Assembly: GCA_944345365.1 (NCBI GenBank)
Contig: CALVMJ010000005.1
Coordinates: 1 to 56,251 of the forward strand
Source of the DNA: an uncultured Clostridia bacterium
GTDB lineage: Bacteria > Bacillota > Clostridia > Christensenellales > UBA1242
Reading direction: 5' to 3'
DNA: 56,251 nucleotides
Under the pieces are notes generated by a model. The model ran no database searches, was not told where the DNA came from, and worked only from the letters and a program-made list of their open reading frames with translations. The translations under genes and the position numbers were made by a program. Below are positions 18,890 through 52,971 of this stretch, in pieces (within the stretch, counting starts at the first letter, position 1; every line of letters starts with the position of its first letter).

Positions 18890-19108
18890 TTATAAATCCC
18901 TCGAATCTCCCTTTTCACTTGCTTTGTTTTTAGCCCTAATTGCCATTGAATATATTTCGCTTGCCTTTAAATTTCCTTTTGGCTTTCCGTTAAAATTGAC
19001 TTGTTGATATTTTATCTCGCTTAAACCACCTGGAACAACCATTTCGCTAACCTTATAAGTTTTTCCATTAAAGGTTACTGCTGTTTGTATTTTATTTTGA
19101 AATTCCAT
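18890..19108 (-). CDS. Hypothetical small protein ending in RDL
   Basis: A 72-aa soluble protein with an AAAGGAG site upstream of the ATG. No family recognised. The first half looks like a beta hairpin (TAVTFNGKTYKVSEMVVPGG); the second is polar and helical. The last residues GDSRDL match the C-terminal R-[D/T]-[L/I] pattern shared by four other unknown proteins in the window. It stands alone downstream of argS. Confidence 0.65.
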   Translation of the reverse strand: MEFQNKIQTAVTFNGKTYKVSEMVVPGGLSEIKYQQVNFNGKPKGNLKASEIYSMAIRAKNKASEKGDSRDL

Positions 19109-19224
19109 ATTTGCTTCTCCTTTTCAGTTGACTTATAATAGCACATTTTTTTTATTTTGTAAATACCTTTTTTAAAATTTTTTAAAATATTTTTTTATTC
19201 GGAAATTAAAGGCAAGCAGGCATT

Positions 19225-20988
19225 TTACATTCTGTCTGGAATATCAATTGCTAAAACATAAAGTGCCTGCACCAAAGCTTTCTTAACAAGCTCACAAAGT
19301 GATAAGTAACTCTTTTTTCTTTCAACCTTTTTTTCGTTTAATATGTGGTGATTATTATAGAATGTTGAAAAAGCACTAGCCAAATCATAACTTGCACTGC
19401 AAAGAGTGTTTAAAGAATTTTCTTTGTAGCAAACTTGATAAGCGCCAATAAGTTTTAACAGTGAAATCAAAATCTTTCTTTCTTCATCACTCTCTATTTT
19501 TATTTCTCCGCCTTGACAATTTGTTTTAGCCATAATTGAATTTATTCTAGCTACTGTGTATTGAATATAAGGCCCGGTTTTTCCCTCAAAAGACAAGAAT
19601 TTATCTAGGTCAAAGACATAATCTTTTGTGACTGTATTAGACAAATCTCCAAATCTCATTGCGCCAAGTCCGATTTTTAACGCAAGTTCCCTGCTCGGCT
19701 TCACCCCATTACTTCTTAACTTTTCACTAGCCTTTTCAATGAGTAAATTTACCACATCGGCAAGTTTAACGGTCGTGCCTTCCCTTGTTTTAAAAGGCTT
19801 CCCATCTTTGCCATTCATTGTTCCAAATCCAACGTGCAATAATTCTTGCTCTGCCGGTGAAATTCCTGCCATTTTACAAGCCCTAAAAACTCTTTCAAAA
19901 TGGCTTGACTGTCTTCCGTCGACAACATAAATAATTTCATCTAAATCCTTAATAGTTTCATTTCTCATAAGGATTGTTGCTATGTCAGTTGTTGCATAAA
20001 CATCTGCTCCATTCTGCTTTTTTAATATAACAGGGGGCATTGGGTTAAGAAGATATGGCTGTCCATTTTCGTCAAGCTTGTCCGAAGGCATGTTTTCCCC
20101 ATCTTTTGCAACATCAACTATTAAAGCCCCTTCACTTTCATAGGCAAGCTTTTTGTCCTCAAAAATTTTTATTGTCTTTTCAATGTAGGCTTCAGCGTCA
20201 CTTTCTCCTAAGAACAAATCAAAGTTTGCATTTAATTCGTTATAATTTTTTTCAATTTCTTTAACTGAAACCTCACGGATTTTTTTATAAGCAGAATAAT
20301 ATGGTTCCTTTTTTTGCTGAATATAAAGAGTTATTTCACTTGCCTTTTGCTTAAATTCCTCGTCAAAATTCTTTCTTTTACTAGCCTTTGGATAAGCAAT
20401 GTTAAGCATTTCAAGGGTGATAATGGGTTCTTTTCCTGCCCCTTTAAAATAGTAATCTAAAACCCCTTCCTCTTGTAATTGAGCAATAGTAAGCCCCATT
20501 TGAAGCCCCCAATCGCCAAGATGCGCATCTGCTATAACCTCATCTCCAAAAAGCTTATAAAGTCTGTTTAACGCCTCCCCTATTATCGGCGATCTTAGAT
20601 GTCCAACATGAAGCTCTTTTGCCACATTTGCTCCGCCATAATCCATAAGAACTTTCTTTCTTTTTTTATTCTTTTCCACTCCAACAAGGTTATCTTCTAA
20701 AAGCTCTTGTGCTTTTTTGGAAAGATATCCATTTTTTATTCTTATGTTTATAAACCCAGGATTTTCTGCACTAAATTCATACTTGGTGTTTTGAGGAATA
20801 TTATTAACAATCTCGGTCGCCAATTCCAAAGGTTTTTTTGAGTGCCTCTTTGAGATAGCAAAACAACTATTTGATTGAAAGTCGCTCAGTTCTGGTCTAT
20901 TAGAAAAACTAACAACGAAATCTTCACCATAACCCAAACTGCTTCCAACTTTCTTTAAAATTGATTCAACTTCACTTTGTAAATTCAT
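19225..20988 (-). CDS. argS: Arginine--tRNA ligase
   Basis: A 587-aa class I arginyl-tRNA synthetase, complete. It has the N-terminal Add-1 domain (SEVESILKKVGSSLGYGED), the HIGH-type motif as ELHVGHLRSPIIGEALNRLY, and the DALR anticodon-binding domain at the C-terminus ending IDIPDRM, as is usual for the family. It charges tRNA-Arg and needs the tRNA for amino-acid activation. An AAGGAG site lies before ATG at 20988, 9 nt after recR, so it ends the dnaX-ybaB-recR-argS run. Confidence 0.97.
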   Translation of the reverse strand: MNLQSEVESILKKVGSSLGYGEDFVVSFSNRPELSDFQSNSCFAISKRHSKKPLELATEIVNNIPQNTKYEFSAENPGFINIRIKNGYLSKKAQELLEDNLVGVEKNKKRKKVLMDYGGANVAKELHVGHLRSPIIGEALNRLYKLFGDEVIADAHLGDWGLQMGLTIAQLQEEGVLDYYFKGAGKEPIITLEMLNIAYPKASKRKNFDEEFKQKASEITLYIQQKKEPYYSAYKKIREVSVKEIEKNYNELNANFDLFLGESDAEAYIEKTIKIFEDKKLAYESEGALIVDVAKDGENMPSDKLDENGQPYLLNPMPPVILKKQNGADVYATTDIATILMRNETIKDLDEIIYVVDGRQSSHFERVFRACKMAGISPAEQELLHVGFGTMNGKDGKPFKTREGTTVKLADVVNLLIEKASEKLRSNGVKPSRELALKIGLGAMRFGDLSNTVTKDYVFDLDKFLSFEGKTGPYIQYTVARINSIMAKTNCQGGEIKIESDEERKILISLLKLIGAYQVCYKENSLNTLCSASYDLASAFSTFYNNHHILNEKKVERKKSYLSLCELVKKALVQALYVLAIDIPDRM

Positions 20989-20997
20989 TATTTCTCC

Positions 20998-21591
20998 TTA
21001 GATATCTCTTCTTGCTTCAAGCGCTTTTGAAAGTGTAACCTCATCTGCATACTCAAGATCGCTCCCCATTGCTACTCCTTGTGCTAGTCTTGTCACCTTA
21101 ACACCCAATGGCTTTAAGAGTTTTGCAATATATAGCGCAGTTGCATCTCCTTCAACATCCGGATTTGTTGCCATTATAACTTCTTCTACATCGTCTTTCT
21201 GTACTCTTTGCAAAAGCTCCTTTACTCTTATGTCATTCGGTCCTCTGTTTTCAAGTGGGGAAAGAGTCCCAAAAAGCACGTGATAAACACCATCATAATT
21301 CTTAACCTTTTCCATAGCTAAAACATCTTTTGGCTCTTTTACTACACACACTATTTTTTTATTTCTCGTAGAACAAATATCACACACTTTTTTTTCGGTG
21401 TAATTTCCACACTCTTCACAAAATCCAATTTTTTCTTTTGCCTCTATTAAAGCGTTAGCGAAATTTTTTGCCCTTTCTTTGTCCCCTTCTATAATAGAAT
21501 AAGCATACCTTTGAGCTGTCTTATAGCCAACACCTGGCAATGAACGAAAATATTCAATTAATCTCTCTATTGGTTCGTCATATTTTTTCAT
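20998..21591 (-). CDS. recR: Recombination mediator RecR
   Basis: A 197-aa RecR with helix-hairpin-helix (LIEYFRSLPGVGYKTAQRYAY), the zinc finger CEECGNYTEKKVCDIC, a TOPRIM domain (VVKEPKDVLAMEKV ... ATNPDVEGDATALYIA) and C-terminal Walker-like TRLAQGVAMGSDLEYADE. With RecF/RecO it loads RecA on SSB-coated DNA gaps. Gene order dnaX-ybaB-recR is the classic bacterial arrangement. The start is one nt after the ybaB stop. Confidence 0.97.
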   Translation of the reverse strand: MKKYDEPIERLIEYFRSLPGVGYKTAQRYAYSIIEGDKERAKNFANALIEAKEKIGFCEECGNYTEKKVCDICSTRNKKIVCVVKEPKDVLAMEKVKNYDGVYHVLFGTLSPLENRGPNDIRVKELLQRVQKDDVEEVIMATNPDVEGDATALYIAKLLKPLGVKVTRLAQGVAMGSDLEYADEVTLSKALEARRDI

Positions 21592-21592
21592 T

Positions 21593-21916
21593 TTACATAC
21601 CCGGTATTTGAGGCATAGATTCTTTTTCGGCTTTGTTTATTTGATTAATAGCATCGTTAAATGCTGAAATAATAAGATCTTGTAACATCTCGACATCATC
21701 TGGATCAATTACTTCTGGCTTAATTGATATGCTTTTGACCTGCTTATTTCCCATCATAATGATTTCAACCATTCCTCCGCCTACACTGGCCTTAAATTCC
21801 TTTTTTTCAAGCTCTGCCTTTGCAGACTCCATTTGTGCTTGCATCTTTTGTGCCTGTCTCATAAGATTTTGAATGTTTGCTCCTCCAAAACCTCCACCGA
21901 ATCCGTTATAACCCAT
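21593..21916 (-). CDS. YbaB/EbfC-family nucleoid protein
   Basis: A 107-aa YbaB/EbfC protein: glycine-rich start (MGYNGFGGGFGGANIQN), LMRQAQKMQAQMESAKAEL helix, then the strand-rich core with GGGMVEIIMMGNKQV and the C-terminal IPGM typical of the family. It forms a pincer-like dimer that binds DNA and is often encoded between dnaX and recR. ATG at 21916 was chosen because GGAG lies at optimal distance; a TTG two codons upstream is less likely. Confidence 0.95.
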   Translation of the reverse strand: MGYNGFGGGFGGANIQNLMRQAQKMQAQMESAKAELEKKEFKASVGGGMVEIIMMGNKQVKSISIKPEVIDPDDVEMLQDLIISAFNDAINQINKAEKESMPQIPGM

Positions 21917-21940
21917 AATCAAATCTCCTTTTATTAATTT

Positions 21941-23373: not shown

Positions 23374-23467
23374 TTTTTAATCCTCGTATGATTATTATAC
23401 ATTAAATTATTATTAAAATCAAGCAATAAAGATTTAATTTATTCCTTTATTGTGGCGATCATTCTTG

Positions 23468-28077: not shown

Positions 28078-28569
28078 ATGAAACATACAACCAATCCATA
28101 TATCATTGACGCCTCTGATATGTCCGACTCCTATGTGTATGCAGCGAAGAAAACCAGCATGATGATTATATCAGCTGTGTATGGACTATTAAAAATGAAT
28201 CCAGGCGAAGAAAGAAACAACGAATGGTATACAAATTTAAAAGAATGGGCAACATCCTCTTCTCTGTATAGTGGCGCCGAAAATGAACCTGCTTGCAAGA
28301 ATGTGGTAAAGTATTGTATGAATAATAAGGCAGAATCTTTAAAAAACCAGTCCGTTATGGGAATTGTGAGGTTCGTTTCTAACTACGAGGATTACACCGA
28401 AGGGAAAAAAGCATATATAAACAACAAAAAGTCTAAAATATTATTCGATGTAGATAAGTTTTACTCAGATCTTTTTTCTAAGAAAATTAATTCAAATCAA
28501 GTAGATGATGCAATGGAAATTTTAAAAGGCGAATTACAAAATTCCCTTGGGCGTGATCGGACAATATAA
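28078..28569 (+). CDS. Hypothetical protein ending in RTI
   Basis: A 163-aa soluble protein without a recognised domain. It has an N-terminal segment with DASDMSDSYVYAAKKTSMM, predicted helices, three cysteines, and a charged C-terminal half. The last residues LGRDRTI fit the R-[D/T]-[L/I] C-terminal pattern seen in four other unknown proteins here. It has its own promoter and shares a bidirectional terminator with the convergent 28597-29973 gene, which carries the same kind of end. Function unknown. Confidence 0.7.
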   Translation: MKHTTNPYIIDASDMSDSYVYAAKKTSMMIISAVYGLLKMNPGEERNNEWYTNLKEWATSSSLYSGAENEPACKNVVKYCMNNKAESLKNQSVMGIVRFVSNYEDYTEGKKAYINNKKSKILFDVDKFYSDLFSKKINSNQVDDAMEILKGELQNSLGRDRTI

Positions 28570-28596: not shown

Positions 28597-29973
28597 TTAC
28601 AAATCCCTATCAAAAGGTGGGGTTATTTTAATGCCTTTTGTATCCAGTTCAACAATTTCAATGTTTGGAACAATCACATCCTGTGTTTTTTCTATGCTAG
28701 GTTTTTGTTCAACTTTGCTTTCTTCCTCTCCAAACAATGATTTTTTCTTTATTGCCTCGCGCTTTATAACATTATCAAGCGAAGAGGAAATTTCGTCTAA
28801 CTTCTTCTTTTTAGATGCATCGTACACTTCTTCCCCTAGTTGATTAAACTTGGCGTCTTTTGTTTTGTCGGCATTGTCTTTTTCCCCCGGAACAATAGGC
28901 TCTTTTTTTTCTTTTTTCTTAGCTTTGGCTTTTCCCCCACCGGAAGCTGGTTTTCCTCCACCAGATTTTCCACCTGAACCTTTACCTCCTCCCTTTTTAC
29001 CAGAAGGAGCAGAAGATTTAGTTTTTTCGGCTTTCTTTTCGGCCATTTTTTGAAACTTACTTGGTGGTATGTCCAACTTTTCCGTAAAAGAATCAAAATC
29101 TTTTATTGGGTCCATAAAATCTTTTGTTATGCTTTTTAGCTCAGAAAAAGCATCAGGATTTTCTTGATATAATGAATTATACCCTCCCATAGAGTCTATT
29201 ACTTGATTTAACAAAACCCTTAATTGTGAATAAAGATTTGGAATCGTTTTATCAATTAACCCCCTTTCTTTCATTTGCCTTTTGTATTCTTCAAGCATTT
29301 CAAGGCCAATTCCTCCACATTTTTCAAGCAGTTTTACCATTCTTAACACATACTGCTCTGAGAACATTTCGATTATAAAGCTTCTTTCCTTGTTTTTCTT
29401 CTTTTTGTTGTCCTCAACCTTTTTTGATATTTGTGGCAACTCTTGATAAGCGTTTTTGTTTTTCTTATCTTCGTTTGCTTCATTTTTTTTGTCAATATTT
29501 GGCAAATATTCCAAAGTATCAGAATCTTCAAGCAAAATATTAAAAGCCTCTCTTGCTTTTTGCTTAAACTCGTAATTTTTTAGGCTTATGTATTCTGCAA
29601 CAAAAGTCTTCAATGGGGCACCATAAACTTTCTCAATGAGATATAACTTTGCAACCATACTCTTATCTTCAAAATCAGAAAATACTAATTCTAATTTTAA
29701 TGTAATATTCTCTCCACAAAGGGCACAATCAATAGAATTTTCTTTTCTCTGAGTCAAATGTTTCGTCTTAGTGACGAGTTCTTCCCGTATTTCCATGGAT
29801 AAAACATAGGCTCCGTCATTATTGTAATCACCTAAAAGATTATTGTTAATTATCGTTTCTTGATTTAAAAATTCCTTATATTCATGAATGTATTTATCTG
29901 AGATTTCTATTTTGCCGTCATTCACAAACACATCAACCCTATCTAATTTCTTTTGTTTTTTTTGTGGTTTCAT
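28597..29973 (-). CDS. Hypothetical lysine/glycine-rich protein ending in RDL
   Basis: A 458-aa soluble protein starting MKPQKKQKKLD behind AGAGGG; a longer frame to 30069 lacks a site. It is not assigned to a family. The N-terminal about 170 residues look folded and contain one CALC pair. A lysine/glutamate linker follows, then a helical domain (about residues 190-330). After that comes a low-complexity stretch with repeated GGG/GKKGGGKGSGGKSGG and KKEKKE, and a short C-terminal strand-like segment ending in PPFDRDL. The Gly-Lys stretch suggests nucleic-acid or polyanion binding, but that is inference. Confidence 0.7.
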   Translation of the reverse strand: MKPQKKQKKLDRVDVFVNDGKIEISDKYIHEYKEFLNQETIINNNLLGDYNNDGAYVLSMEIREELVTKTKHLTQRKENSIDCALCGENITLKLELVFSDFEDKSMVAKLYLIEKVYGAPLKTFVAEYISLKNYEFKQKAREAFNILLEDSDTLEYLPNIDKKNEANEDKKNKNAYQELPQISKKVEDNKKKKNKERSFIIEMFSEQYVLRMVKLLEKCGGIGLEMLEEYKRQMKERGLIDKTIPNLYSQLRVLLNQVIDSMGGYNSLYQENPDAFSELKSITKDFMDPIKDFDSFTEKLDIPPSKFQKMAEKKAEKTKSSAPSGKKGGGKGSGGKSGGGKPASGGGKAKAKKKEKKEPIVPGEKDNADKTKDAKFNQLGEEVYDASKKKKLDEISSSLDNVIKREAIKKKSLFGEEESKVEQKPSIEKTQDVIVPNIEIVELDTKGIKITPPFDRDL

Positions 29974-39796: not shown

Positions 39797-39832
39797 AAAA
39801 AATGGCGCATATTGCACCATTTAGTCGTTTTT
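39797..39832. repeat. 36-bp direct repeat, right copy (native secA end and terminator)
   Basis: The minus strand carries the last codons K-N-D-stop of secA, then AATGGTGC/GCGCCATT and a T-run, i.e. the secA terminator. Identical to 37285-37320. Confidence 0.9.
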
Positions 39833-42532
39833 TCCACAACAATTTTTGTATTTTTTACCCGAACCACATGGACATAAGTCGTTTCTTTTTGGTTGTTTAC
39901 TTTCATTTATGACCGTTTTTTGAACCTCTATTTTTCCCTTTTTAGGCTTGTCAAACAGGTCTTCTCTTCTCTTAACTGGCGTAAATGTTGGTTTTTTTAT
40001 TGGTTCTGGTTGTTTGACCTCGATATTAATGTTTAAAAGCATCATACAAGTCATTTCTCTTATCTTTTCAATCATCTCGTCAAACATTGCGTAACTTTCT
40101 TTTTTGTAGGCAAGAACTGGATCTTCATTTCCAAATCCTCTTGCAAAGATTTCATTTTTCAGAGTTTGCATGTCGTCTATGTGATTTGTCCAATGAGAAT
40201 CAACAATTCTAAGCATAACAAGCCTTTCAACTTTTTCAAAGTCTATCCCCATTTTTTGTGCCTCTTCTATTTTTTCTTGATATCTTCTATCAACATAAGA
40301 AAGCACTTTTTCTTCGACTTCTGAAACATCACACCCTTCAACAAAAGCCTCTGTTACAAGATTTTTTTCTTTTTCAACAAGTCCTCTTTCCAAGGCGTTG
40401 TTTAGCGGGGATAAATCCCATTCATAGTAAGGTTTGTCGTCTGACAAATTTTCCCTTACAACCTTAGACACAACAGCTGGAAACATTCCAACGATTTGCT
40501 CGTGGATAGGCATTCCATCTAAAACTTTGTTTCTTTGCTCATAGATCACCGTTCTTTGAGTGTTCATAACATCGTCAAATTTAAGAACTGTTTTTCTTAT
40601 AGAAAAGTTTTGAATTTCAATCTTTTTCTGAGCGCTTGTTATTTGTTTGGAGAGAATTTTTAATTGTATAGGGGTAGATTCATCAAGTCTGAAAATCATT
40701 GCGATTTTCTTCATTTTATCTCCACCGAATCTTCTTATTAAATCGTCTTCTAGCGACAAGAAGAAAACGCTTGAACCAGGGTCTCCCTGCCTTCCAGCAC
40801 GACCTCGAAGCTGATTATCAATCCTCCTTGACTCATGCCTTTCTGTTCCAATTATGTGAAGACCTCCAAGAGCAACGACTTCTTTCTTTTCCTTGTCTGT
40901 TTCTTGTTTTATCTGGGAAAGGAGTTCGTTATACCTTTTTCTGGCTTTGTTAAGTTCTTCGTCATTTGAGTTATAGAAAGCTGTTGCATAGGAAATCTGT
41001 TCTTCAGTAAAGTTTTCATCGCTCATTTTCTTCTTTGCCAAGAACTCTGGATTTCCACCAAGTAAAATGTCAGTTCCTCTTCCTGCCATATTGGTTGCAA
41101 TTGTTACAGCTCCCTTTCTTCCAGCCTGTGCAACTATTGCACTTTCCTGTTCGTGATTTTTCGCATTTAGCACAATATGCTTTATTTTCTCTCTTTTAAG
41201 TGCCCTTGAAAGTTCTTCAGATTTTTCAATGGTTATTGTTCCGACTAGCACCGGTCGTCCTGTTTGATTAAGCCTTTTTATTTCTTCTGTTACAGCCTTG
41301 ATCTTTCCGTTATATGTTGTGTAGATAATATCTGGCTCGTCCTGACGCTTGTTTGGAAGATTTGGCGGAATTGTTACAACATCAAGGTTGTAAATCGTTC
41401 TAAACTCACCCTCCTCGGTCTTTGCAGTTCCTGTCATACCGGAGAGTTTTTTGTATAGCCTAAAATAGTTTTGGAAGGTTATGGTTGCAAGAGTTTTGTT
41501 TTCATCTTTAATTTCAACACCTTCTTTTGCCTCTATTGCTTGATGAAGTCCGTCGTTAAATCTTCTTCCCGGCATAAGTCTTCCTGTAAACTCATCGACA
41601 ATTATAACTTCGCCGTCCTTTACGATGTAGTTTTCGTCTTTGAACATAACAAAATTAGCTTTCATCGCATTGTTAATATAGTGATTTAGTTCTATGTTTT
41701 GAATATCGGAAAGAACATCGACACCATAAAATCTTTCGGCCTTCTCCACACCCTTTTCAGTAAGATTTATGGCCTTTGTTTTTTCGTCCATTTCAAAATC
41801 TACATCTTTTTTCATGGTTCTTGCAAGCTTGTTTGCTTTAACATAATCATCACTCGACTTTCCGCCCTGTCCCGAAATAATAAGAGGCGTTCTTGCTTCG
41901 TCAATTAAAATACTGTCAACTTCGTCAACTATTGCAAAATTTTGTCCTCTTTGCATCCTTCTGTCGGCTGATATGGCCATATTATCTCTTAAATAGTCAA
42001 ATCCAAGTTCGTTGTTCGTGCAATAACAAATGTCTGCAAGATAGGAGTTTCTCTTAACATTTTCTGGCATTCCCGACACAATAACTCCAACCGTTAAGCC
42101 AAGAAATTTATAAACCTTTCCCATCCACTCGGCATCACGCCTTGCAAGATATTCGTTGACAGTAACAATGTGAACACCTTTCCCACTTAATGCATTTAAA
42201 TATGCCGGCAAAGTTGCGACCAAAGTTTTACCTTCACCCGTTTTCATTTCGGCAATTCTGCCTTGATGTAAAGCAATTCCGCCCAAAATTTGAACATAAA
42301 AGTGCTTCATATTCAAAACTCTCCATGCAGATTCCCTACAAACAGCAAAAGCTTCGGGCAAAATATCGTTTAATGTTTTTCCGTTTAAAAGTTCTTGCTT
42401 TAAAATGCCCGTCTGTGCTTTTAATTCTTCATCAGACATAGTTGAATACTTATTTTCAAGTGCAATAACCTTGTCTGCAATTTTTTTAAGTTTTTTTACC
42501 TGTGAATTGTTTTCGCTTCCAAAAAGTCCCAT
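39821..42532 (-). CDS. secA: Preprotein translocase ATPase SecA
   Basis: A 903-aa SecA, full length. N-terminal FGSENNSQVKKLKKI, Walker A MKTGEGKTLVATLPAY, Walker B IVDEVDSILIDEARTPLIIS, preprotein cross-linking domain, VTIATNMAGRGTDILLGG, LRGRAGRQGDPGSS as motif VI, long helical scaffold, and the C-terminal zinc tail LCPCGSGKKYKNCCGKND. It drives proteins through SecYEG. AGGAG before the ATG. Its 3' end serves as boundary of the neighbouring insert. prfB, commonly downstream, is absent here. Confidence 0.98.
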   Translation of the reverse strand: MGLFGSENNSQVKKLKKIADKVIALENKYSTMSDEELKAQTGILKQELLNGKTLNDILPEAFAVCRESAWRVLNMKHFYVQILGGIALHQGRIAEMKTGEGKTLVATLPAYLNALSGKGVHIVTVNEYLARRDAEWMGKVYKFLGLTVGVIVSGMPENVKRNSYLADICYCTNNELGFDYLRDNMAISADRRMQRGQNFAIVDEVDSILIDEARTPLIISGQGGKSSDDYVKANKLARTMKKDVDFEMDEKTKAINLTEKGVEKAERFYGVDVLSDIQNIELNHYINNAMKANFVMFKDENYIVKDGEVIIVDEFTGRLMPGRRFNDGLHQAIEAKEGVEIKDENKTLATITFQNYFRLYKKLSGMTGTAKTEEGEFRTIYNLDVVTIPPNLPNKRQDEPDIIYTTYNGKIKAVTEEIKRLNQTGRPVLVGTITIEKSEELSRALKREKIKHIVLNAKNHEQESAIVAQAGRKGAVTIATNMAGRGTDILLGGNPEFLAKKKMSDENFTEEQISYATAFYNSNDEELNKARKRYNELLSQIKQETDKEKKEVVALGGLHIIGTERHESRRIDNQLRGRAGRQGDPGSSVFFLSLEDDLIRRFGGDKMKKIAMIFRLDESTPIQLKILSKQITSAQKKIEIQNFSIRKTVLKFDDVMNTQRTVIYEQRNKVLDGMPIHEQIVGMFPAVVSKVVRENLSDDKPYYEWDLSPLNNALERGLVEKEKNLVTEAFVEGCDVSEVEEKVLSYVDRRYQEKIEEAQKMGIDFEKVERLVMLRIVDSHWTNHIDDMQTLKNEIFARGFGNEDPVLAYKKESYAMFDEMIEKIREMTCMMLLNINIEVKQPEPIKKPTFTPVKRREDLFDKPKKGKIEVQKTVINESKQPKRNDLCPCGSGKKYKNCCGKND

Positions 42533-42926: not shown

Positions 42927-45900
42927 ATGAGTGAGAAGACTTTGTTGGAAATGCAACAAGAATTACAAAGAATAATAAAAGGACAAGAGGTGTCGGAAAG
43001 AGTTAAAAATGCACAAAAAAGAGAAAATATCCTTAAAAAAGCCGGAGCTTCTCTTGCCTTACCCGCCACGGCTATGGCAATGTTCGGTGCTGGTGGGCAT
43101 GCGTATCAACAAAAAAACTATATAAGCGAAGTTAATGAAACACCACCTCCCATCGTCTATGAAATTGAAGATCAAGAAACTTTAAACCGTCTTAGTGACT
43201 CCTATTCCCCATACAATTTCATTAAATATAAAGACACTCAGGTAGAAGACGAGCCAATTAACTCAATTAAAAATGTTCTTTCAAAAGACTCTACTTTTAA
43301 TGGTTATGGCAGAGCAAACACTCCTGGACTAAGCGCAGAGGAAAGAAACCTAATAAACGAAAAATTGTCTGACGCAAAAAATTATTTCAATGATCAAAAT
43401 AAAAAGATTCTTGAAGACAACAAAAAAAATGTTCAAGTTAAACAAACACAAAAAAAGGAGAAAGCAATGGACAACAATAATCCTATTAATGATTACAAAA
43501 ACAACATCAATACTTTACTTGGTATAACCTTGATGAAAGCATATCAAGAAAACGCAGCAGAAAAATACAAAAGTGACACATTACAAAACACCGTTCCAGC
43601 TAGCAATTGGCTCCCAGGAAAAACTGATTCAAAAGTTGCTTCTTCAATTACTGCAACAAAAATAAGCGAAATTCCAAAAAGTGATCAAGTGGAATACGAA
43701 ATTATTGAACCACCTTCAACAGAATTTAATTCATCTCAAAATAAAATGGAAGATATTTCCAGCTTTGTTAAGATTAAAAAATCATTTGATAAAAAAGGCA
43801 TCACACATTATGACATTAAACCCAAAAAAGAAGTTCCTCCTATTCTAAAACAGTTTGGGACAAGCTTAAAAAATGCTTCCCAATCAATTGCGAGGGGAAT
43901 TAGTCAAGTCGCAGGAGCAACATTAGAAACTGCAAAACGAGGCGCTCAGGCAGCCGTTTCAGTAGTTCAAAAAGGTGCCGAAAAAGCTATTGATACTGCA
44001 GGCACCATTGCGGAAGGCGCTGTCAATATAGCCGAAAATGTTGTTGACGGAGTAGTCGATATTGGAAAGGAGACAGTAAATATTGCAGGTGATGTCGCAA
44101 GAGAGGTTGTTGGAACTGCCGGCGATGTCGCAAGAGAGGCTGCTAGAGCCGGAGGGCGTGTCGTTGATGGAGCAGTAAACATCGCCGAAAACACTGCTAA
44201 AACAGCTGGACGTATTGTAGAAGGCGCTGCAAACACTGGATATGCAATTCTTAAAAATGCCTCAGATGGAATGTTATACGGTGCAAAAGGAGCTGTTGAT
44301 ATACTAAAAGATATTTCAGGAAATTATCAACAAAGACTTAATGTAAGAAACTATTATGCAGAACAAAGGGAAACTGATATAGTTAGACAACAACAGTATA
44401 GAAAAAATATTAGAAGTGAGTCTAGGGCTTTTACTAAAGCTGAGGTAGAAAAAAGAAAAACTGATGATAATCAAACAAAAAATACAATCAATATAATTAA
44501 TGCAGAAGCAGAGGCAAACGCCAAAGCTCATGAACAAGCAAGGTTAACCAGCCAGCAAAAAAGAGAAGATGCCGTTGCTGTAATAAAAGCAAATGAAGAA
44601 AGCAAAGAAGCATTAATATCAGCACGAGTTCAAGCAGAAAATGAAAGTCTTAATAATAAAATTATTTATGCTCAAAGATTATCTGATGTTAAACTTGATC
44701 ATCAACAAAAAAGAAATGAGAATAAATTGACTGCTGAAGCTTTACATGCTCAACTTAATTTAATTCAAAATATGTTGAATGCCTCAATCAATGTAAAGGA
44801 AAGACAAGCCTTTAATCAGTCAGAAGTAGAAAAACAAAAAGCTCTTGCTGATATTGAAATAAATAAAGCCAGAGAACTTGCTAATATAGAAATTGAAAAA
44901 CAAGAAAAATTAACACAGCTTAACGAGCCTCTCGTAAAAAACAAAATGGAAGTTAAACCTGCAAAAGATCCTATGTTTATAAATCTTCAATTATTTGCGG
45001 GTGACTCTGATGAAGTGGACAATAAAGATGATGATGATACTTCACTTGACGGATTCGACAAAGATTTTCTTTCAGCCAGAGAGCTTGCAAGAAAGTTAAT
45101 TAGAAAAGAGAGTTTGTTTAATCAACTTAAAGAGGACTCAGAAAATCTTGGGGTATCCTTTACTTCTGTTTTTAAAACAAAGAAAATAGATGAAAATGGC
45201 AAACCGATGCTGTTTTATCCAAAAACTTATATCTCTTCCAAAATGGGCACAACCCTTTTAAATATCCTCGATGCAGAAAATGGCAATAAGTCAATTTTGT
45301 CATTGATAGACAATGGTAAAGAAACACCTTTTATCAACATTGACAAATCTATTTTGTCAAAAGAATTAATTGAAGCATTTAATGAGAAAGGCTTTGAGTC
45401 AAAAGATGAACACATAACTATTCCTGTTGAATCTTGCATGAGGACAAACAGCAAGGTGATTAAATTTAAAATTCAGGGCTCAAATCTTGCTGTTAATATT
45501 GACGCAAAAAATATTTACTTTACACTAACAGATAACGAAAACAAGGTTACTCATGTTCATCAGCCAGCAAAAGATTCTGTTTTTGACTTCCAAATAAATC
45601 CTGAGCTTGTAAGAAAAACTTTGGACAAAGACGACAAAACCTATTTCTTTATGGATAAGAATGAAAAACCTTTTTCTAAAAATACAAGTCTTGTAGCAAA
45701 TCTCGACCCAAAAGAACTCCTGGCATTAGCAAAAACAGCTCCTGAAAAAGAAGGGGTTAGAATATTTAATGAAGGTGGGGTTCCAAGCATATTCTACACC
45801 ACAATTAAGGATAGAGACAAAAAAGATCAAGAAGTGCTTATTTTAAAAATTTCAGAAGATGAAAATTATGTTTTTGGAAATTTTGGAAATGACAAAACAA

Positions 45901-48494
45901 AAGATTTATGTTATTTCAGAAAAGTTGACTCTGTTTCCCTTATTGGTAGAGATGAGACAAAGGAAAACAAGACCTACGATTGTGGCTTGGTTTTTAACTC
46001 TGAATTAAGAACTCCTTTGGAAATTCACACCAACATTTATAACAAAGAAGGTTCAAAGAAGGATCCTAACGACCTTACAATTGCCGAAGCAAAAGTCAAT
46101 AACAAGGTACTAAAAGAAATTGTAAAATTCGTTAAGCAAGAAACATATGATGGGGTTACTCACACTGATATTGATGACTTTACCTTTTCCGAAACAAATG
46201 AAATAGTAACAAATAAATTTGACTCATCAAACAATTACACCGATTTCTTTACAAGACCAGATAAAGGTAGAGAGTTTGTCATTGATATACCAGAAAAAGA
46301 AAGCGATAAAGAAGAACCAACAGATGAAACTCCTGAAGAAATCAAAGAACCAACAAACCTTGTTGTAGATAACAATATCGAAGGGTTCGACAAGGATTTC
46401 TTGTCAAACAGAGTGCTTGAAAGAATGGAGCTAAACGATAAAAATCTTTTCGAAAAAATTAGCATTAATGAAAAGCTTGGCATTAGTTATTCTACAATAT
46501 TTAGAACACTTAAAAAAGACGAAAATGATAATCAGATCGAATTTGAACAAAACACATATATATCAAACAATATGGGCTCTGCTCTTTTAAATGTTTTGGA
46601 TCCTAAAAATGAAAACAAAAAAATTTTGTCTTTAAGTGAAGACAAAGAAAAGACCCCTTATATTACTGTGGACAAGTCCGTTCTTTCAGCTGAGTTAATA
46701 AAGCTGTTTGAAGATAAAAATTTTGCCTCAACAGAAGAAAGCATAGAAATTCCTGTTGAAACTTGCATTAGGACAAACAGTAAGATTATGAGCTTTAAGA
46801 TTGAAGGAACCGATCTTGCTGTCAATGTTGACGCAAAAAACATCTACTTCACCCTAACAGACAAGGAAAACAAGGTTACTCATGTTCATCAGCCAGCACA
46901 AGATTCTGTTTTTGACTTCCAGTTAAATCCAGAGTTTATGGCAAAAACACTTGATCAAGAAAATAATAAATACTTGTTCCTTGATCATAAAGGAAATTCC
47001 TATTTGGATAACAAAGACTTGATTCTTGACCTTGATCCAAAAGAGCTTCTTGCACTTGCTATGTCTGAAAAAGATGTTGAAGGAGTGAGAATTTTTAACA
47101 ACGGAAAATTCCCTAGCATTCTTTACACAACCATAACTAACACAAATAACGAAGAACAAAAAATTTTGATTGTAAAAACGGGCGAAGATGAAAATTTTGT
47201 TTATGGAAACTTTGGTCTAGACGAAAACAAGGATTCGTGTGCATTTAAAAAAGTTGATTCCATTTCGTTAGTTGGAGAGGAATTTAACTCTGAAAACAAA
47301 AATTATAATTGTGGATTGGTCTTTAATTCCGAAGATAAACCTCTTATAATTGACACTCAAATTGCAAGCAATCAAATCGGCAAAGATAGGGAAAACGACT
47401 TGCAATACGACCAAATCAAAGCAAACTATGATAAATTAGAATTAATAAAAAGTTATATTAAAGAATCTAACGACCAAATTGCAACGGAAGAAAATTCTGA
47501 TCCTAATGAAATAAGGTTTGGAAAGCTTAACTTTGCTAACATTAACACAGATTCAATTGAATCTTTTAACTCTTCTCTTAACCACACAGAGTATTACACT
47601 AAACCTGATGAAGGAAAGCAAGCCGTTGATGAAATCGCTAAGCCGGAAGTTGAACTACCTAAGCCAGATGTCGACGACCCTTCAAAAGGAGAACCGGAAG
47701 TCAAAGAACCACCTGCTCAACCAAAACCTGAAAAATCGGGAGAAGCGGAAAAGAGCCTCAAAGACACTTGGGGACCTGCTGGATTGCTTTTAATGGCAGT
47801 TGGCGTGATCTTTATGCTTCTAGCGACAATACTAGGCGCTCCATTTGCTTTCATCGGAGTTTCGGCATTAGTAGTTGGTGCAGGCGTTAAAGTTGTTTCC
47901 AATGTTAAATTTAGCGACAGCGCCAAACTAAATAAAGCTGTTGATGAACAATTAAAAAAGAAAAAAAGAGAAAAGAAGGAAAACAAAAAGAAACAAAGGC
48001 TTCGTGAGAGATTAAATATTTTTAATCATATTCGCAACTCAAAAAAACTTAAAATACAAGAATCTGAACAAGATAGTGAATCTGAAAATAAAAGAAAAAA
48101 TGGAGATAAACATAAAATTATTACAAATATATCTAATAGTGAGCAAAGTTTTTGGAGCAGATTGTTTAACAGAAAGACATCAAAACTCCCTCCTGAAATT
48201 ATGTTTCCTGAAAACGAAATTTCTGATACTATCCCATCTGTAGAGAATTATTCACCAGCAGGATACGTAGAAATTTCATCAGGAGAATATTCAGAAAATT
48301 TACCAGAGAAATATGCAGAGACAAGAGCACCTGAAGAAACAGCTGATGAAAGCGAAACACAAATGAATTATAACTCAGATGAAATCAAGGTGATAGATGG
48401 GGTTAGAAAAATTTTCAGAAAAGGTAAAAAACCTTTAGATCCCGCAAAAACAGAATATAAATCGTCAGATACTGGTGATGAACGTACCCTTTAG
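42927..48494 (+). CDS. Giant modular protein: 11-mer amphipathic repeats, duplicated domain, two membrane segments, RTL end
   Basis: A 1,855-aa protein, GGAGG at the start, not assigned to a family. Order: polar N-terminus with a short Ala/Gly hydrophobic patch (about residues 37-55); 11-residue amphipathic repeats (about 345-450, e.g. IAGDVAREVVG, TAGDVAREAAR) resembling synuclein/LEA lipid-binding helices; coiled coil (about 470-680); an internal MFINLQLFAGD at about 683; two copies of a ~410-aa domain starting GFDKDFLS at about 709 and 1153; a Pro/Glu-rich linker; a hydrophobic hairpin (about 1615-1658); and a basic then acidic tail ending GDERTL. No signal peptide, so probably a cytoplasmic protein inserted or attached to the membrane. 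An in-frame ATG at 43467 has AAGGAG upstream and may be a second start. Confidence 0.85.
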   Translation: MSEKTLLEMQQELQRIIKGQEVSERVKNAQKRENILKKAGASLALPATAMAMFGAGGHAYQQKNYISEVNETPPPIVYEIEDQETLNRLSDSYSPYNFIKYKDTQVEDEPINSIKNVLSKDSTFNGYGRANTPGLSAEERNLINEKLSDAKNYFNDQNKKILEDNKKNVQVKQTQKKEKAMDNNNPINDYKNNINTLLGITLMKAYQENAAEKYKSDTLQNTVPASNWLPGKTDSKVASSITATKISEIPKSDQVEYEIIEPPSTEFNSSQNKMEDISSFVKIKKSFDKKGITHYDIKPKKEVPPILKQFGTSLKNASQSIARGISQVAGATLETAKRGAQAAVSVVQKGAEKAIDTAGTIAEGAVNIAENVVDGVVDIGKETVNIAGDVAREVVGTAGDVAREAARAGGRVVDGAVNIAENTAKTAGRIVEGAANTGYAILKNASDGMLYGAKGAVDILKDISGNYQQRLNVRNYYAEQRETDIVRQQQYRKNIRSESRAFTKAEVEKRKTDDNQTKNTINIINAEAEANAKAHEQARLTSQQKREDAVAVIKANEESKEALISARVQAENESLNNKIIYAQRLSDVKLDHQQKRNENKLTAEALHAQLNLIQNMLNASINVKERQAFNQSEVEKQKALADIEINKARELANIEIEKQEKLTQLNEPLVKNKMEVKPAKDPMFINLQLFAGDSDEVDNKDDDDTSLDGFDKDFLSARELARKLIRKESLFNQLKEDSENLGVSFTSVFKTKKIDENGKPMLFYPKTYISSKMGTTLLNILDAENGNKSILSLIDNGKETPFINIDKSILSKELIEAFNEKGFESKDEHITIPVESCMRTNSKVIKFKIQGSNLAVNIDAKNIYFTLTDNENKVTHVHQPAKDSVFDFQINPELVRKTLDKDDKTYFFMDKNEKPFSKNTSLVANLDPKELLALAKTAPEKEGVRIFNEGGVPSIFYTTIKDRDKKDQEVLILKISEDENYVFGNFGNDKTKDLCYFRKVDSVSLIGRDETKENKTYDCGLVFNSELRTPLEIHTNIYNKEGSKKDPNDLTIAEAKVNNKVLKEIVKFVKQETYDGVTHTDIDDFTFSETNEIVTNKFDSSNNYTDFFTRPDKGREFVIDIPEKESDKEEPTDETPEEIKEPTNLVVDNNIEGFDKDFLSNRVLERMELNDKNLFEKISINEKLGISYSTIFRTLKKDENDNQIEFEQNTYISNNMGSALLNVLDPKNENKKILSLSEDKEKTPYITVDKSVLSAELIKLFEDKNFASTEESIEIPVETCIRTNSKIMSFKIEGTDLAVNVDAKNIYFTLTDKENKVTHVHQPAQDSVFDFQLNPEFMAKTLDQENNKYLFLDHKGNSYLDNKDLILDLDPKELLALAMSEKDVEGVRIFNNGKFPSILYTTITNTNNEEQKILIVKTGEDENFVYGNFGLDENKDSCAFKKVDSISLVGEEFNSENKNYNCGLVFNSEDKPLIIDTQIASNQIGKDRENDLQYDQIKANYDKLELIKSYIKESNDQIATEENSDPNEIRFGKLNFANINTDSIESFNSSLNHTEYYTKPDEGKQAVDEIAKPEVELPKPDVDDPSKGEPEVKEPPAQPKPEKSGEAEKSLKDTWGPAGLLLMAVGVIFMLLATILGAPFAFIGVSALVVGAGVKVVSNVKFSDSAKLNKAVDEQLKKKKREKKENKKKQRLRERLNIFNHIRNSKKLKIQESEQDSESENKRKNGDKHKIITNISNSEQSFWSRLFNRKTSKLPPEIMFPENEISDTIPSVENYSPAGYVEISSGEYSENLPEKYAETRAPEETADESETQMNYNSDEIKVIDGVRKIFRKGKKPLDPAKTEYKSSDTGDERTL

Positions 48495-48521
48495 AAAATA
48501 ATTAAAAGGAAAATATAAATA

Positions 48522-49613
48522 ATGAAAATAGGTGTAGTTGGCCTACCAAATGTAGGAAAAAGCACTCTCTTTAACGCAATTACAGAGGCTGGTGCTGAAA
48601 GTGCCAACTACCCTTTTTGCACTATTGAGCCAAATGTTGGTATTGTTGATGTTCCCGACAAAAGGCTTACTGAGCTTGGGAAACTTTACAATACGCAAAA
48701 AATTACACCTGCAACCATTGAATTTATGGATATTGCAGGGCTTGTGGCTGGTGCAAGTAAGGGTGAAGGTCTTGGCAATAAATTTTTAAGTCATATTCGC
48801 GAAGTTGATGCAATAGTCCATGTAGTTAGGTGTTTTGAAAACGAGAACATTATTCATGTAAGTGGCTCTGTTGACCCAATTCGCGATATTGAAGTAATCA
48901 ATCTTGAACTTGCTCTTGCAGATTTGGAGCAAGTAACCAAAAAACTTGAAAAAGATTCGAAACTAGTAAAAACCGGAGACAAAACTTTGGCAGAAACTGT
49001 TGCTTTGTTAGAAAAGGTTAAGGCCGTTTTAGAAGAGGGAAAGCCTGCAAGAACACTTTCTTATTCGGAAGAAGAGGAAAAACTTTTGAAAAACTTTTCA
49101 CTTTTAACTGCAAAGCCTGTAATATATGTTGCAAACATAAGTGAAGAAGACATTGAAGCAGAGACAAATGCTCTTGCCGAGAAGGTGAAATCTTTTGCTA
49201 AAAGCGAAAATTCTTCTTGCATTTGTTTGTGTGCTAAGATTGAAGAAGAATTAATCTCCCTCCCACCTGATGAAAGAGAAATATTTAAAGAAGAGCTTAA
49301 AATTAAGCAAAGTGGACTTGAAAAACTTGTAATTGCAAGTTATGACCTGCTTGGACTTATGAGTTTTTTAACAGCAGGGGAAAAAGAAGTCCGCGCTTGG
49401 ACAATTAAAAAAGGAACGAAAGCTCCTCAGGCTGCCGGAAAAATTCACACCGATTTTGAAAAAGGATTTATTAAAGCAGAAATTGTTTCCTACGACGATT
49501 TGATGTCGGCTGGATCATATTTAAAGGCAAGGGAAAGTGGAAAGGTTAGAATTGAAGGAAAAGAATACGTTATCTCTGACGGCGATGTTGTGTTGTTCCG
49601 ATTTAATGTTTAG
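48522..49613 (+). CDS. ychF: Ribosome-binding ATPase YchF
   Basis: A 363-aa Obg-like ATPase of the OLA1/YchF family. G1 GLPNVGKSTLF, switch region IEFMDIAGLVAGASKGEGLG, NFS-type/coiled-coil insertion, and C-terminal TGS domain with TIKKGTKAPQAAGKIHTDFEKGFI. The family prefers ATP over GTP and binds ribosomes. First of a tight plus-strand operon ychF-mrnC-rlmB-sigH, 28 nt after the giant gene, from which it may also be read through. Confidence 0.97.
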   Translation: MKIGVVGLPNVGKSTLFNAITEAGAESANYPFCTIEPNVGIVDVPDKRLTELGKLYNTQKITPATIEFMDIAGLVAGASKGEGLGNKFLSHIREVDAIVHVVRCFENENIIHVSGSVDPIRDIEVINLELALADLEQVTKKLEKDSKLVKTGDKTLAETVALLEKVKAVLEEGKPARTLSYSEEEEKLLKNFSLLTAKPVIYVANISEEDIEAETNALAEKVKSFAKSENSSCICLCAKIEEELISLPPDEREIFKEELKIKQSGLEKLVIASYDLLGLMSFLTAGEKEVRAWTIKKGTKAPQAAGKIHTDFEKGFIKAEIVSYDDLMSAGSYLKARESGKVRIEGKEYVISDGDVVLFRFNV

Positions 49614-49621
49614 GAGAAAAA

Positions 49622-49987: not shown

Positions 49988-49990
49988 ATT

Positions 49991-50725: not shown

Positions 50726-50727
50726 AA

Positions 50728-51315
50728 GTGTCTGACGAAGAACTTGTTTTAAGGGCTCAGAAAGGAAATTCTGACGCAGAATTAGAAATCTATTCTCGCT
50801 ATAAGAACCTTTTGCTTAAAATTTGCAGGGGATATTTTTTGGTTGATGGAAGCATTGAAGACCTTGTCCAAGAAGCAATGATTGGGCTTTTTAAAGCAAT
50901 CAAGAGTTTTTCAAGGCAAAAAGAAGTTAGTTTTGCCACATACGCTGGACTCTGCGTTAAACGACAAGTCCAAACAGCCGTAAAAAAAGCAACAAGTCAA
51001 AAAAACTTAATTCTCTCGTCTGCCCTTCCATTGATAGGACAGAGTGATGACGATGAAGATGGATCAAGTGAAATTATAATCCCCTCCTCCGATCCCCTCC
51101 CCGACGAAATTCTTATCTCAAAAGAAACAGTGGCTCAAATAAAATTGGAGATAAAAAAAAGACTTTCTGCAATGGAGCAAAAAGTTTTATCGAGGTATTT
51201 GCGCGGAGAAAGCTATGCCGAAATATCAAAACTGACAGGCCTTACTAACAAAAGTATTGATAATGCGCTTACGAGAATAAAGAAAAAACTTGAATTTTTG
51301 AAAAATAAAGCTTAA
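50728..51315 (+). CDS. sigH: RNA polymerase sigma factor, SigH-like
   Basis: A 195-aa sigma-70-family factor with GTG start and AAGGAAGG upstream, 2 nt after rlmB. Region 2 contains GSIEDLVQEAMIGLFKAIKSF and SFATYAGLCVKRQVQTAVKK. Region 4 contains SAMEQKVLSRYLRGESYAEISKLTG and NKSIDNALTRIKKKLEFL. Position after mrnC-rlmB identifies it as the sigma-H (Spo0H) orthologue, which directs early sporulation or transition-state genes. In Bacillota it usually precedes rpmG-secE-nusG; here that operon is about 33 kb away. Confidence 0.9.
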   Translation: MSDEELVLRAQKGNSDAELEIYSRYKNLLLKICRGYFLVDGSIEDLVQEAMIGLFKAIKSFSRQKEVSFATYAGLCVKRQVQTAVKKATSQKNLILSSALPLIGQSDDDEDGSSEIIIPSSDPLPDEILISKETVAQIKLEIKKRLSAMEQKVLSRYLRGESYAEISKLTGLTNKSIDNALTRIKKKLEFLKNKA

Positions 51316-51340
51316 TTAAAAATAAAGATATTAAATTTAT

Positions 51341-51369
51341 TTGGCAATTACTCAAATTTTGGTTATACT
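51341..51369 (+). promoter_or_regulatory. Promoter immediately before the 51378 gene
   Basis: TTGGCA (51341-51346), 17 nt, TATACT (51364-51369). The ATG starts only 9 nt after the -10 box, so the transcript may begin at or next to the start codon. Confidence 0.65.
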
Positions 51370-51377
51370 ATAACTAG

Positions 51378-52052
51378 ATGATGAGTTTAATTGCCTTTTT
51401 TTGTGTGCTTGGAGCTTGCTTGACTCTTTGTGGAGTCTCTGCTTTTAAGGTGCAAAGAGATAAACTTTTAATATATGTAACATTAAAGGGTCTTGCTATT
51501 TTATCCATATTGACATTTGCAGTTACTTGCGCTAATTTGGCATCAAATATGCAAGGGACTACTCTTTTTATCTTACTTGGAATATCTTTTCAAATATTTT
51601 CAGCCATAGTTTCAATTTTGCCAACAAAAAATGATTTGTTCGCTCCGCTATATCAGGCGCTTGACCTAGGAACAGCTTTGTGTTTGGCTTTTGCTGGATT
51701 ATTATTGACATCGCTTTCCCCTTTTGGACTTCCAATTGGGCTTGGAGTGGGGATAATTGCAAGTTTAATAATAATCTTAGTAAAAAAATCTTTCAACTGG
51801 AAAGTTGATATTTCAAAATATGGTTGTTTTTCATTTGCTGTTGCTTTGCTTGGACAAGTTGTAGTTATATTAATTAATTCTCAATCTATTCAAAGTATAA
51901 TTTTTGGTATTGGGAGTGTATTATTCTTTGCATACATTATTCTAAAAAACTTCTTTTTAGAAGAAAATAAAAAAGTTTTAATATCAAAAAATTTATTATA
52001 TTACCTGTCATTATTGACAATAGTTTCTTCCATTTTCCTTTATATCTATTAA
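51378..52052 (+). CDS. Polytopic membrane protein, possibly YhhN/lysoplasmalogenase-like
   Basis: A 224-aa protein with about eight hydrophobic segments and very short loops. Size, number of spans and the final GIGSVLFFAYIILKNFF recall YhhN-family proteins (TMEM86-type lysoplasmalogenases), which end in a similar helix. The expected GD and SD motifs of that family are not obvious, so the call is tentative. There is no ribosome site before either ATG (51378, 51381), in line with a leaderless mRNA. A terminator follows directly. Confidence 0.6.
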   Translation: MMSLIAFFCVLGACLTLCGVSAFKVQRDKLLIYVTLKGLAILSILTFAVTCANLASNMQGTTLFILLGISFQIFSAIVSILPTKNDLFAPLYQALDLGTALCLAFAGLLLTSLSPFGLPIGLGVGIIASLIIILVKKSFNWKVDISKYGCFSFAVALLGQVVVILINSQSIQSIIFGIGSVLFFAYIILKNFFLEENKKVLISKNLLYYLSLLTIVSSIFLYIY

Positions 52053-52089
52053 AAAGGCAATATAAACCAAAATTTTAATGCCTTTTTTT
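52051..52089 (+). terminator. Terminator after the 51378-52052 gene
   Basis: AAAAAGGCA / TGCCTTTTT with a 19-nt loop and T-run; the stop codon overlaps its left flank. Confidence 0.75.
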
Positions 52090-52099
52090 TATTTTTTTC

Positions 52100-52128
52100 T
52101 TGACATTTTTAAAGAAATGGCATATAAT
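52100..52128 (+). promoter_or_regulatory. Promoter of the initiator tRNA gene
   Basis: Perfect TTGACA (52100-52105), 17 nt, perfect TATAAT (52123-52128); the tRNA starts 21 nt later. Confidence 0.92.
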
Positions 52129-52148
52129 ATATGAGTATTAACGAATGT

Positions 52149-52225
<77 letters not shown>

Positions 52226-52227
52226 GT

Positions 52228-52570
52228 AACCGGAAGACATCCGGTTTTTTTATTGAGGGAGGGAGTGGTTTGAAGCACGACCTCTTAGTGAGCCTAAGCG
52301 AACGAGCGGTCCTTTAAAGCTTCAAGCCCTACTCCAAGAGCCACTAACCGGAAGACATCCGGTTTTTTTTATTGAGGGAGGGGGGGGGTGAAGCACGACC
52401 TCTTAGTGAGCCTAAGCGAACGAGCGGTCCTTTAAAGCTTCAAGCCCTACTCCAAGAGCCACTAACCGGAAGACCTCCGGTTTTTTTATTGAGGGAGGGG
52501 ATTGAAGGACGACCTCTTAGTGAGCCTAAGCGAACGAGCGGTCTTTTAAAGCTTCAAGCCCTAATGCAAG
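52228..52570 (+). repeat. Three 118-bp tandem repeats derived from the tRNA tail and terminator
   Basis: Units start at 52228, 52346 and 52464 (AACCGGAAGA...). Each holds a terminator hairpin ACCGGA/TCCGGT with T-run, a GAGGGAGGG spacer, and an imperfect cruciform: outer stem GGAGT...TTTGAAGC / GCTTCAA...ACTCC, inner GACC/GGTC and CTTAG-TGAGC-CTAAG. Each unit ends in GCTTCAAGCCCTACTCC-AAGAGCCA, which resembles the tRNA T-arm/acceptor end GGTTCAAATCCTACTCCCGC-AACCA. Units 1 and 2 are near-identical; unit 3 has lost the 5' arm and the CCA part. The open frame across it is a by-product of the repeats. Confidence 0.9.
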
Positions 52571-52597
52571 AATTAAATAAATACATAATACTTCATA

Positions 52598-52638
52598 AAA
52601 AAAGCTTATGGGTTTAAAATACCATAAGCTTTTTTTTA
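52598..52638. terminator. Bidirectional terminator between repeat array and the 52645 gene
   Basis: AAAAAAGCTTATGG / CCATAAGCTTTTTT, 14-bp stem with 10-nt loop, usable on both strands. Confidence 0.85.
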
Positions 52639-52644
52639 GTTTTT

Positions 52645-52971
52645 TTATAGATCTCTGCCATCTTTTTTCGATTCCTTTATTGGAGGCAAAAAACTTGTTC
52701 CAAATTTAACCTTAATAATTTTTGCATTATCGTACCTATTTGAAATATAACTTTCAATAGATTGATTTTCTAGGTGTTTTTTTCCTGAATTTATTTCATC
52801 TTCTCTAATACTTAATATAACGCCTAATTTTTGTGTCCTTACATAGTACTCTCCTTCTGGAGTTTGATAGAAAAGAAAAATATTATTATCACATGTTTCA
52901 GGATCTTCTATATTTGGCATTTTTCTACTACTTAAACTGCTTATTTCTATGTATTTAATTTTATCTTTCAT
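52645..52971 (-). CDS. Hypothetical protein ending in RDL
   Basis: A 108-aa soluble protein behind AAAGGAG. No family recognised. Strand-rich middle part (IFLFYQTPEGEYYVRTQKLG, VILSIREDEI), then IIKVKFGTSFLPPIKE and a charged end KKDGRDL that fits the R-[D/T]-[L/I] pattern of four other unknown proteins in the window. Monocistronic with its own terminator. Confidence 0.7.
   Translation of the reverse strand: MKDKIKYIEISSLSSRKMPNIEDPETCDNNIFLFYQTPEGEYYVRTQKLGVILSIREDEINSGKKHLENQSIESYISNRYDNAKIIKVKFGTSFLPPIKESKKDGRDL

Follow-up and report, generated by a model that had tools for sequence, protein, structure and literature searches.

Species-private C-terminal tails shared by unrelated proteins in a genus of gut Clostridia, a possible signal for a chromosomal type IV secretion system

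Substrates of type IV secretion systems (T4SSs) carry C-terminal signals without a common consensus, which may be Arg-rich, hydrophobic or Glu-rich, according to the excerpted text of PMC10025392. Whether Gram-positive T4SSs are dedicated to effector translocation is a long-standing question, as put in the excerpted part of a 2025 review (PMC12857230), where the 89K system of Streptococcus suis is described as apparently the first effector translocator of a Gram-positive bacterium. Here we describe a window of 56,251 nucleotides from an uncultured Clostridia bacterium (GCA_944345365.1, contig CALVMJ010000005.1, positions 1 to 56,251) in which five unrelated proteins end in R-[DT]-[LI]. Their counterparts in other species of the genus share other endings, and we weigh the possibility that such a species-private C-terminal tag is read by VirD4, the coupling protein of a T4SS, or by one of its partners.

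The arrangement resembles the Arg signal of the Agrobacterium VirB/D4 system and the E-block of Legionella Dot/Icm in that short polar or charged C-terminal ends are found on unrelated non-Sec proteins. As in effector T4SSs, the genome encodes VirB4, VirD4 and a pilin, and Arg-type ends occur in one clade and acidic ends in others. Yet several genomes here show a tightly defined end that is switched between species, whereas effector T4SS signals have no common consensus (PMC10025392, excerpt), and, unlike Agrobacterium and Legionella, the host is a Clostridia genus. The S. suis 89K system offers another parallel, a protein-secreting T4SS of a Firmicute, but it is carried by a pathogenicity island and its exported protein is a protease (PMC12857230, excerpt), whereas here VirB4 and VirD4 are near-universal and a PF03432 relaxase is found in one of 13 genomes. 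Patescibacteria and Saccharibacteria likewise combine small genomes, a monoderm envelope and T4SS genes; they belong to another phylum, however, and no such tag is described for them in the excerpted part of PMC12857230. No account of the present system was found in the literature, judged by titles and abstract openings.

Contig C5 of a 914-kb genome (G000; 30 contigs, 98.4% complete) makes up the window; contigs C29 and C30 of this genome read as N. Gene calls throughout come from a simple caller, so that gene counts are approximate. All five open reading frames of the original prediction were recovered with the ends that it had listed:

18890..19108, minus strand: 72-aa orphan, ends GDSRDL (18893-18901); no match in 100 other genomes of the genus
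28597..29973, minus strand: F2, 458 aa (longer open frame to 30069), ends PFDRDL (28600-28608)
52645..52971, minus strand: 108-aa orphan, ends KDGRDL (52648-52656); no match in 100 other genomes of the genus
28078..28569, plus strand: F3, 163 aa, convergent to F2, ends GRDRTI (28558-28566)
42927..48494, plus strand: F1, 1,855 aa, flanked by secA and ychF, ends GDERTL (48483-48491 for the final three residues)

These proteins stand among core genes such as secA, ychF, recR and argS (names assigned by eye from translations). The Arg codons of the five ends are AGG, AGG, AGA, CGG and CGT and the last-residue codons TTA, TTG, CTA, ATA and CTT; since the end codons differ, the shared end is no copied DNA word, as had been predicted. 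The claim that such ends are far too numerous for chance was likewise borne out: together with RecR (20998-21591), which ends RRDI, six of the 47 window genes carry one, against 0.04 expected. In a scan of many residue classes at the last three positions, R-[DT]-[LI] was the top-ranked pattern of the window, with a p value that is inflated because the classes DT and LI were taken from the finding itself. For R-[STND]-[LI] the count is 6 against 0.08 expected (log10 p -9.5), and the best of 200 shuffles reached -5.2. Pfam searches of tagged proteins, including those of other species described below, gave only two results above the cut-off, a helicase (G032) and DUF4116 repeats (G000).

The motif as first worded did not hold beyond the window. 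R-[DT]-[LI] is found on six of 734 called G000 genes, and all six (RecR and the five) lie in the window, so that the expected genome-wide enrichment was not seen; an uncalled 60-aa open frame elsewhere in G000 (L039 4235-4417) ends RTL. A G000 protein ending KDGRNV (L047 3566-4069) was considered as a sixth bearer and dropped, being a GtrA membrane protein. Conservation in orthologues was not seen either: none of 25 F2 homologues keeps R-[DT]-[LI], and two end in R-[ES]-L (G006, GREL; G034, GRSL). R-[DT]-[LI] as a literal genus-wide tag was rejected on these grounds. The original prediction had named absence of genome-wide enrichment and loss of the last three residues in orthologues as refuting it, and both are literally what was found, but both presuppose one universal tag. 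Its idea of a C-terminal tag uniting unrelated proteins is well supported by the tails described below, as long as the tag is not taken to be a fixed word. In favour of the reading that the five ends are a chance pattern picked after the fact, many windows and patterns were presumably read and no further called G000 gene has the end.

In relatives, the syntenic counterparts of F1, F2 and F3 share another ending, and this ending changes in concert between species. In sister genomes it is often [hydrophobic]-[ST]-R. Several close relatives show a common end on these proteins, namely G076 (VFSR, ELSR, IVTR), G005 (KLSK, DLSR, ERTR), G086 (GLSR, DMTR, SAGR) and G032 (EISR, QLDR, VLGR); G089 has GRSR and ERGR but a third end ILGN, and G025 has AITR and SLNR but a third end NYRL. 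Arg is the last residue of 19 of 29 F1-F3 proteins from 11 sister genomes, while among 179 other called proteins from these regions 3 end in it (Fisher p 7e-17, a value that is too small because the rows are related). As the sister clade favours Arg at the end, the window tag is best seen as a switch within that clade, and it looks reversed relative to it, R-x-L against L-x-R. Elsewhere, G125 has DRTL as in the window, Gly-Arg ends are found on F1 in G068 (DGRSI), G102 (EGRDI) and G085 (GRERI), and other lineages have acidic ends, for example G133 (DESV, EQES, EAGK). With the Legionella E-block, a Glu-rich motif near the C-terminus, in view, acidic residues were counted: outside the Arg clade the last six positions hold 1.98 of them (88 proteins) against 0.96 in other proteins (432). 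These acidic ends are loosely defined in many lineages.

The pattern [hydrophobic]-[STDN]-R was written down from three known G076 bearers before further stretches of that genome were examined (340 called genes, 431 kb). Where 0.98 bearers would be expected there, it has eight, including five that were new. A narrower form, [LIVMF][ST]R, defined only after the list of G076 ends had been inspected, was the top pattern of the scan with seven bearers against 0.49 expected, and none of 60 shuffles was as good. Concerted change was also measured by permuting genomes within families over 78 cross-family within-genome pairs (5000 permutations). For the last 3, 5 and 7 residues of non-homologous proteins, within-genome similarity was above all 5000 permutations, with a mean for the last five of 0.95 compared with -1.49 under permutation; without G000, respectively 0, 0 and 6 of 5000 permutations were as good. 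In inner stretches, permutations as good numbered 3998 (residues -6 to -10), 1270 (-11 to -15), 621 (-16 to -20) and 3431 (-21 to -25). The charge of the last six residues also correlates between families (F1-F2 rho 0.80, n 19; F1-F3 0.68, n 16; F2-F3 0.71, n 26). A species-private C-terminal tag of about the last three to seven residues therefore exists, and it co-varies within genomes for F1, F2 and F3.

These results speak to the chance reading as well. None of 200 shuffles matches the best window pattern, concerted tails are present elsewhere even when G000 is left out, and Arg ends recur in the sisters; the tests on other genomes in effect refute chance, which we regard as very improbable. 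The tails might alternatively have no function, being disordered stretches that drift with lineage-specific composition. They are rich in Lys, Ser, Gly and Glu and look unstructured by eye, the acidic ends are loose, and weak likeness or correlated charge extends to some inner stretches. Against this reading, residues -6 to -10 of these tails show no within-genome similarity, Arg ends are concentrated on F1-F3 in the sister genomes, and RDL, RTL and RTI are written with different codons. Drift without function is assigned a low probability.

F1 lies between two untagged genes that served as synteny anchors, and it contains a hydrophobic hairpin:

39821..42532, minus strand: secA, anchor on one side of F1
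48522..49613, plus strand: ychF, anchor on the other side of F1, used for a record search with YchF
about 47766-47909, plus strand: internal hydrophobic hairpin of F1, residues 1614-1661

By the rule used to pick it, a large protein occupies the place between secA and ychF in all but two (G021 and G035) of 52 genomes examined, and the hairpin was found in 50 of 50 by hydropathy scan, while the F1 tail differs from species to species. Of the 80 loci returned by the YchF search 28 were examined; F1 stood at this place in four of four from the genus and in none of 24 from outside it, so that its presence here seems confined to the genus, although two of the four genus loci (L077 and L079) look like the same records as G086 and G125. 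A sequence search of 100 other genomes of the genus yielded only two short weak matches to F1, neither usable as a homologue. F2 consists of a conserved N-terminal domain (about residues 25-320), a variable stretch rich in Lys, Ser and Gly, and the tag. Its homologues were found in 25 of 60 relatives searched, all of them among the 36 genus members, and its profile had no match among solved structures (best E 0.11). For F3, a search of 100 other genomes of the genus found no match by sequence. Its counterparts were picked by position, as convergent genes of similar size beside an F2 homologue, in 25 relatives; they show 11-20% identity, and some of these automatic picks are probably wrong, for instance that in G007. 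A neighbour of about 700 aa, F4, was tried as a further tagged family and is unsupported, since F1-F4 pairs show no tail similarity.

The main tagged families lack Sec-like signals. In hydropathy scans an N-terminal hydrophobic segment was found in 2 of 50 F1, 0 of 31 F2, 0 of 26 F3 and 0 of 13 F4 proteins, and a membrane segment in 1 of 31 F2, 0 of 26 F3 and 0 of 13 F4. F1 resembles chlamydial Inc proteins, which are secreted, lack a Sec signal and are soluble apart from a two-lobed hydrophobic hairpin; Inc proteins differ in using a type III system and an N-terminal signal.

The T4SS enters as candidate reader through a gene of the window and through others elsewhere in G000:

6057..6377, plus strand: T4SS pilin (VirB2/TrbC-like), a component of the candidate reader; PF18895, E 3.6e-8, above the cut-off

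Pfam also identified a VirB4-like protein (TraG P-loop) and VirD4 (PF02534, split over two contigs). Of 112 genomes of the genus, 107 have VirD4 and 110 have VirB4 at E <= 0.001, a few matches being partial or weak; for the 72 better assemblies the numbers are 70 and 71. A conjugative T4SS is recognized by a relaxase in the same genome, and the PF03432 search found none in G000; over 13 genus genomes, all 13 have VirD4 and G004 alone has PF03432, the one relaxase family searched. The VirD4 gene of G076 is some 73 kb away from VirB4 and some 7 kb away from a gene that looks pilin-like by eye, amid ordinary genes. VirD4 diverges faster than VirB4, with a median identity to G076 of 48% against 70% (33 of 112 genomes). 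Tag distance tracks VirD4 distance corrected for SecA (partial r 0.21, p 0.03, 18 genomes), and the reverse does not hold (r -0.06, p 0.66). A swap of VirD4 in G000 as the cause of its tag is unsupported, its VirD4 grouping with the sister clade.

We propose that a tag of about three to seven residues, placed on a set of fast-evolving proteins without Sec-like signals, would be read by one reader per species, a single reader being suggested because the tails change in concert. The tag would be R-[DT]-[LI] in G000, often [hydrophobic]-[ST]-R in its sisters, and acidic or Gly-Arg-containing elsewhere. The reader would be VirD4, or its partner, of the chromosomal T4SS that is near-universal in the genus, and the tagged proteins would be sent through this T4SS as effectors or surface-delivered proteins. 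Once the binding site of the reader altered, all its substrates would have to follow with a matching change, and this would account for the concerted pattern; the password would drift or switch between species and be rewritten jointly on all unrelated substrates. Of the readers named in the original prediction (receptor, compartment, protease or export system), an export system in the form of this T4SS is the best supported, although the link is circumstantial. We infer that the tag is a secretion signal and its bearers exported or surface-delivered. That VirD4 or a partner is the reader stands at about even probability, and the same balance applies to the combined statement that a species-private tag on fast-evolving non-Sec proteins is read by VirD4 or a partner of the chromosomal T4SS. 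The fuller picture, in which a chromosomal T4SS of this small-genome gut genus has come to serve only protein export, with its coupling protein recognizing a C-terminal password private to each species, is advanced tentatively, as somewhat more doubtful than probable.

Several observations weigh against this proposal. With respect to the tails, the similarity test gives p 0.03 as far in as residues -31 to -35 (154 of 5000 permutations as good). Inner charge at -7 to -12 also correlates (F1-F2 rho 0.53, p 0.02; F1-F3 0.47, p 0.07), as does charge at -13 to -18 between F1 and F4 (rho 0.70, p 0.008), with rho -0.56 for F1-F3, and the last-six charge of F4 does not co-vary with that of F1 (rho -0.22, n 13). 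The argument accordingly rests on the similarity test, not on the charge test, whose controls are not clean. Sister genomes G015 and G020 have no clear shared tail. Among the bearers, one G076 protein (124 aa) seemingly has an N-terminal membrane segment (by eye), and the bearer of LTNR in G032, an end resembling the local tag, is a DEAD/HA-domain helicase (L169 7110-9365). In G000 itself, two adjacent DUF4116-type repeat proteins on contig C15 (L044 14370-15575 and 15641-16732) carry the sister-type ends ELTR and SSSR; the repeat type was assigned by Pfam (PF13475) in the first and by eye in the second, which is truncated at its start where the contig ends, a phage portal-like gene lies nearby (by eye), and the pair may have been acquired from a sister species. 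With respect to the machine, no counterparts of VirB6, VirB8 or VirB1 were identified, and PF02534 coupling proteins also occur in five of eight other families of the order, so that having a T4SS does not in itself set the genus apart. The link between VirD4 and tag distance is weak and confounded by phylogeny, and thus suggestive. Neither search found VirD4 in G014, G098, G109, G117 or G132, of which only G109 (97%) and G014 (92%) exceed 90% completeness, so that gaps may account for some absences; G098, G109 and G132 keep F1 and G014 keeps F2.

Retention of F1 without detected VirD4 in G098, G109 and G132 fits the reading that the tag, though real, has another reader inside the cell, such as a scaffold, compartment or polar-localization protein with no role in secretion. 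The same tail evidence (window enrichment, within-genome similarity, Arg ends) fits this explanation, and the hairpin found in every F1 could seat it in the cell's own membrane, where it would collect tagged partners. No alternative reader was identified, though no systematic search was made, and orphan status and fast evolution would suit effectors better than housekeeping scaffolds. An intracellular reader is on balance unlikely, but it deserves serious consideration. A further possibility is that the tail is a fast-evolving C-terminal signal for degradation or processing, recognized by a protease or its adaptor; bacteria do have C-terminal degrons a few residues long. It would be odd for such a signal to tag the same syntenic genes across many species while 176 of the 179 other regional proteins have no Arg end, and we judge this explanation improbable.

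To return to the proposed T4SS reader, a genus with near-universal VirB4 and VirD4, a relaxase in one of 13 genomes and concerted tags offers a direct, testable candidate for the question of effector translocation by Gram-positive T4SSs. If the proposal is true, about a hundred species would each supply a natural VirD4-tag pair, and these would reveal how the coupling protein recognizes its cargo, the tag would give a simple means to list the effectors of a species, and a record of reader-substrate co-evolution could be read from the tails. Even with another reader, it would be unusual for unrelated proteins to have their C-terminal tag rewritten in concert, species by species.

The T4SS genes have some further features. 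Three tandem large proteins with six or seven predicted membrane segments (L047 4344-11436, contig C18 of G000) are VirB6-like candidates; two of them were scanned and gave no Pfam match. In G002, G029, G035, G063, G083, G085, G102 and G112 the common pair is accompanied by another VirB4 and by a further, diverged VirD4 (37-41% to G076), perhaps on an integrative element. Directly beside VirB4 there is a giant lipoprotein-like open frame in G076 (L178 6937-17145, 3,402 aa) and in G000 (L069 13659-20000, cut by the end of the stretch). Two VirD4 matches (G020:C1:119600-121594 and G120:C67:9877-11877) have one in-frame TAG each, possibly reflecting broken genes or sequencing errors.

A chimeric bin, with the window contig coming from another species, is unsupported. 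Window proteins have a median identity of 64.7% to G076 proteins (n=30), the medians are 57-63% for contigs C3, C4, C6, C12, C13 and C17, 73% for C1 and 46-52% for C7 and C8, and contigs C2, C9, C11, C14, C16, C18 and C20 gave two to six matches each at 31-51%, few because only half of G076 was compared. Within the window, a collagen-like Gly-Pro-Thr repeat protein (54912-56249) apparently runs past its end. Downstream of the T4SS pilin gene lies an untagged 2,776-aa surface-type protein (7587-15917) with a C-terminal membrane segment and a basic tail.

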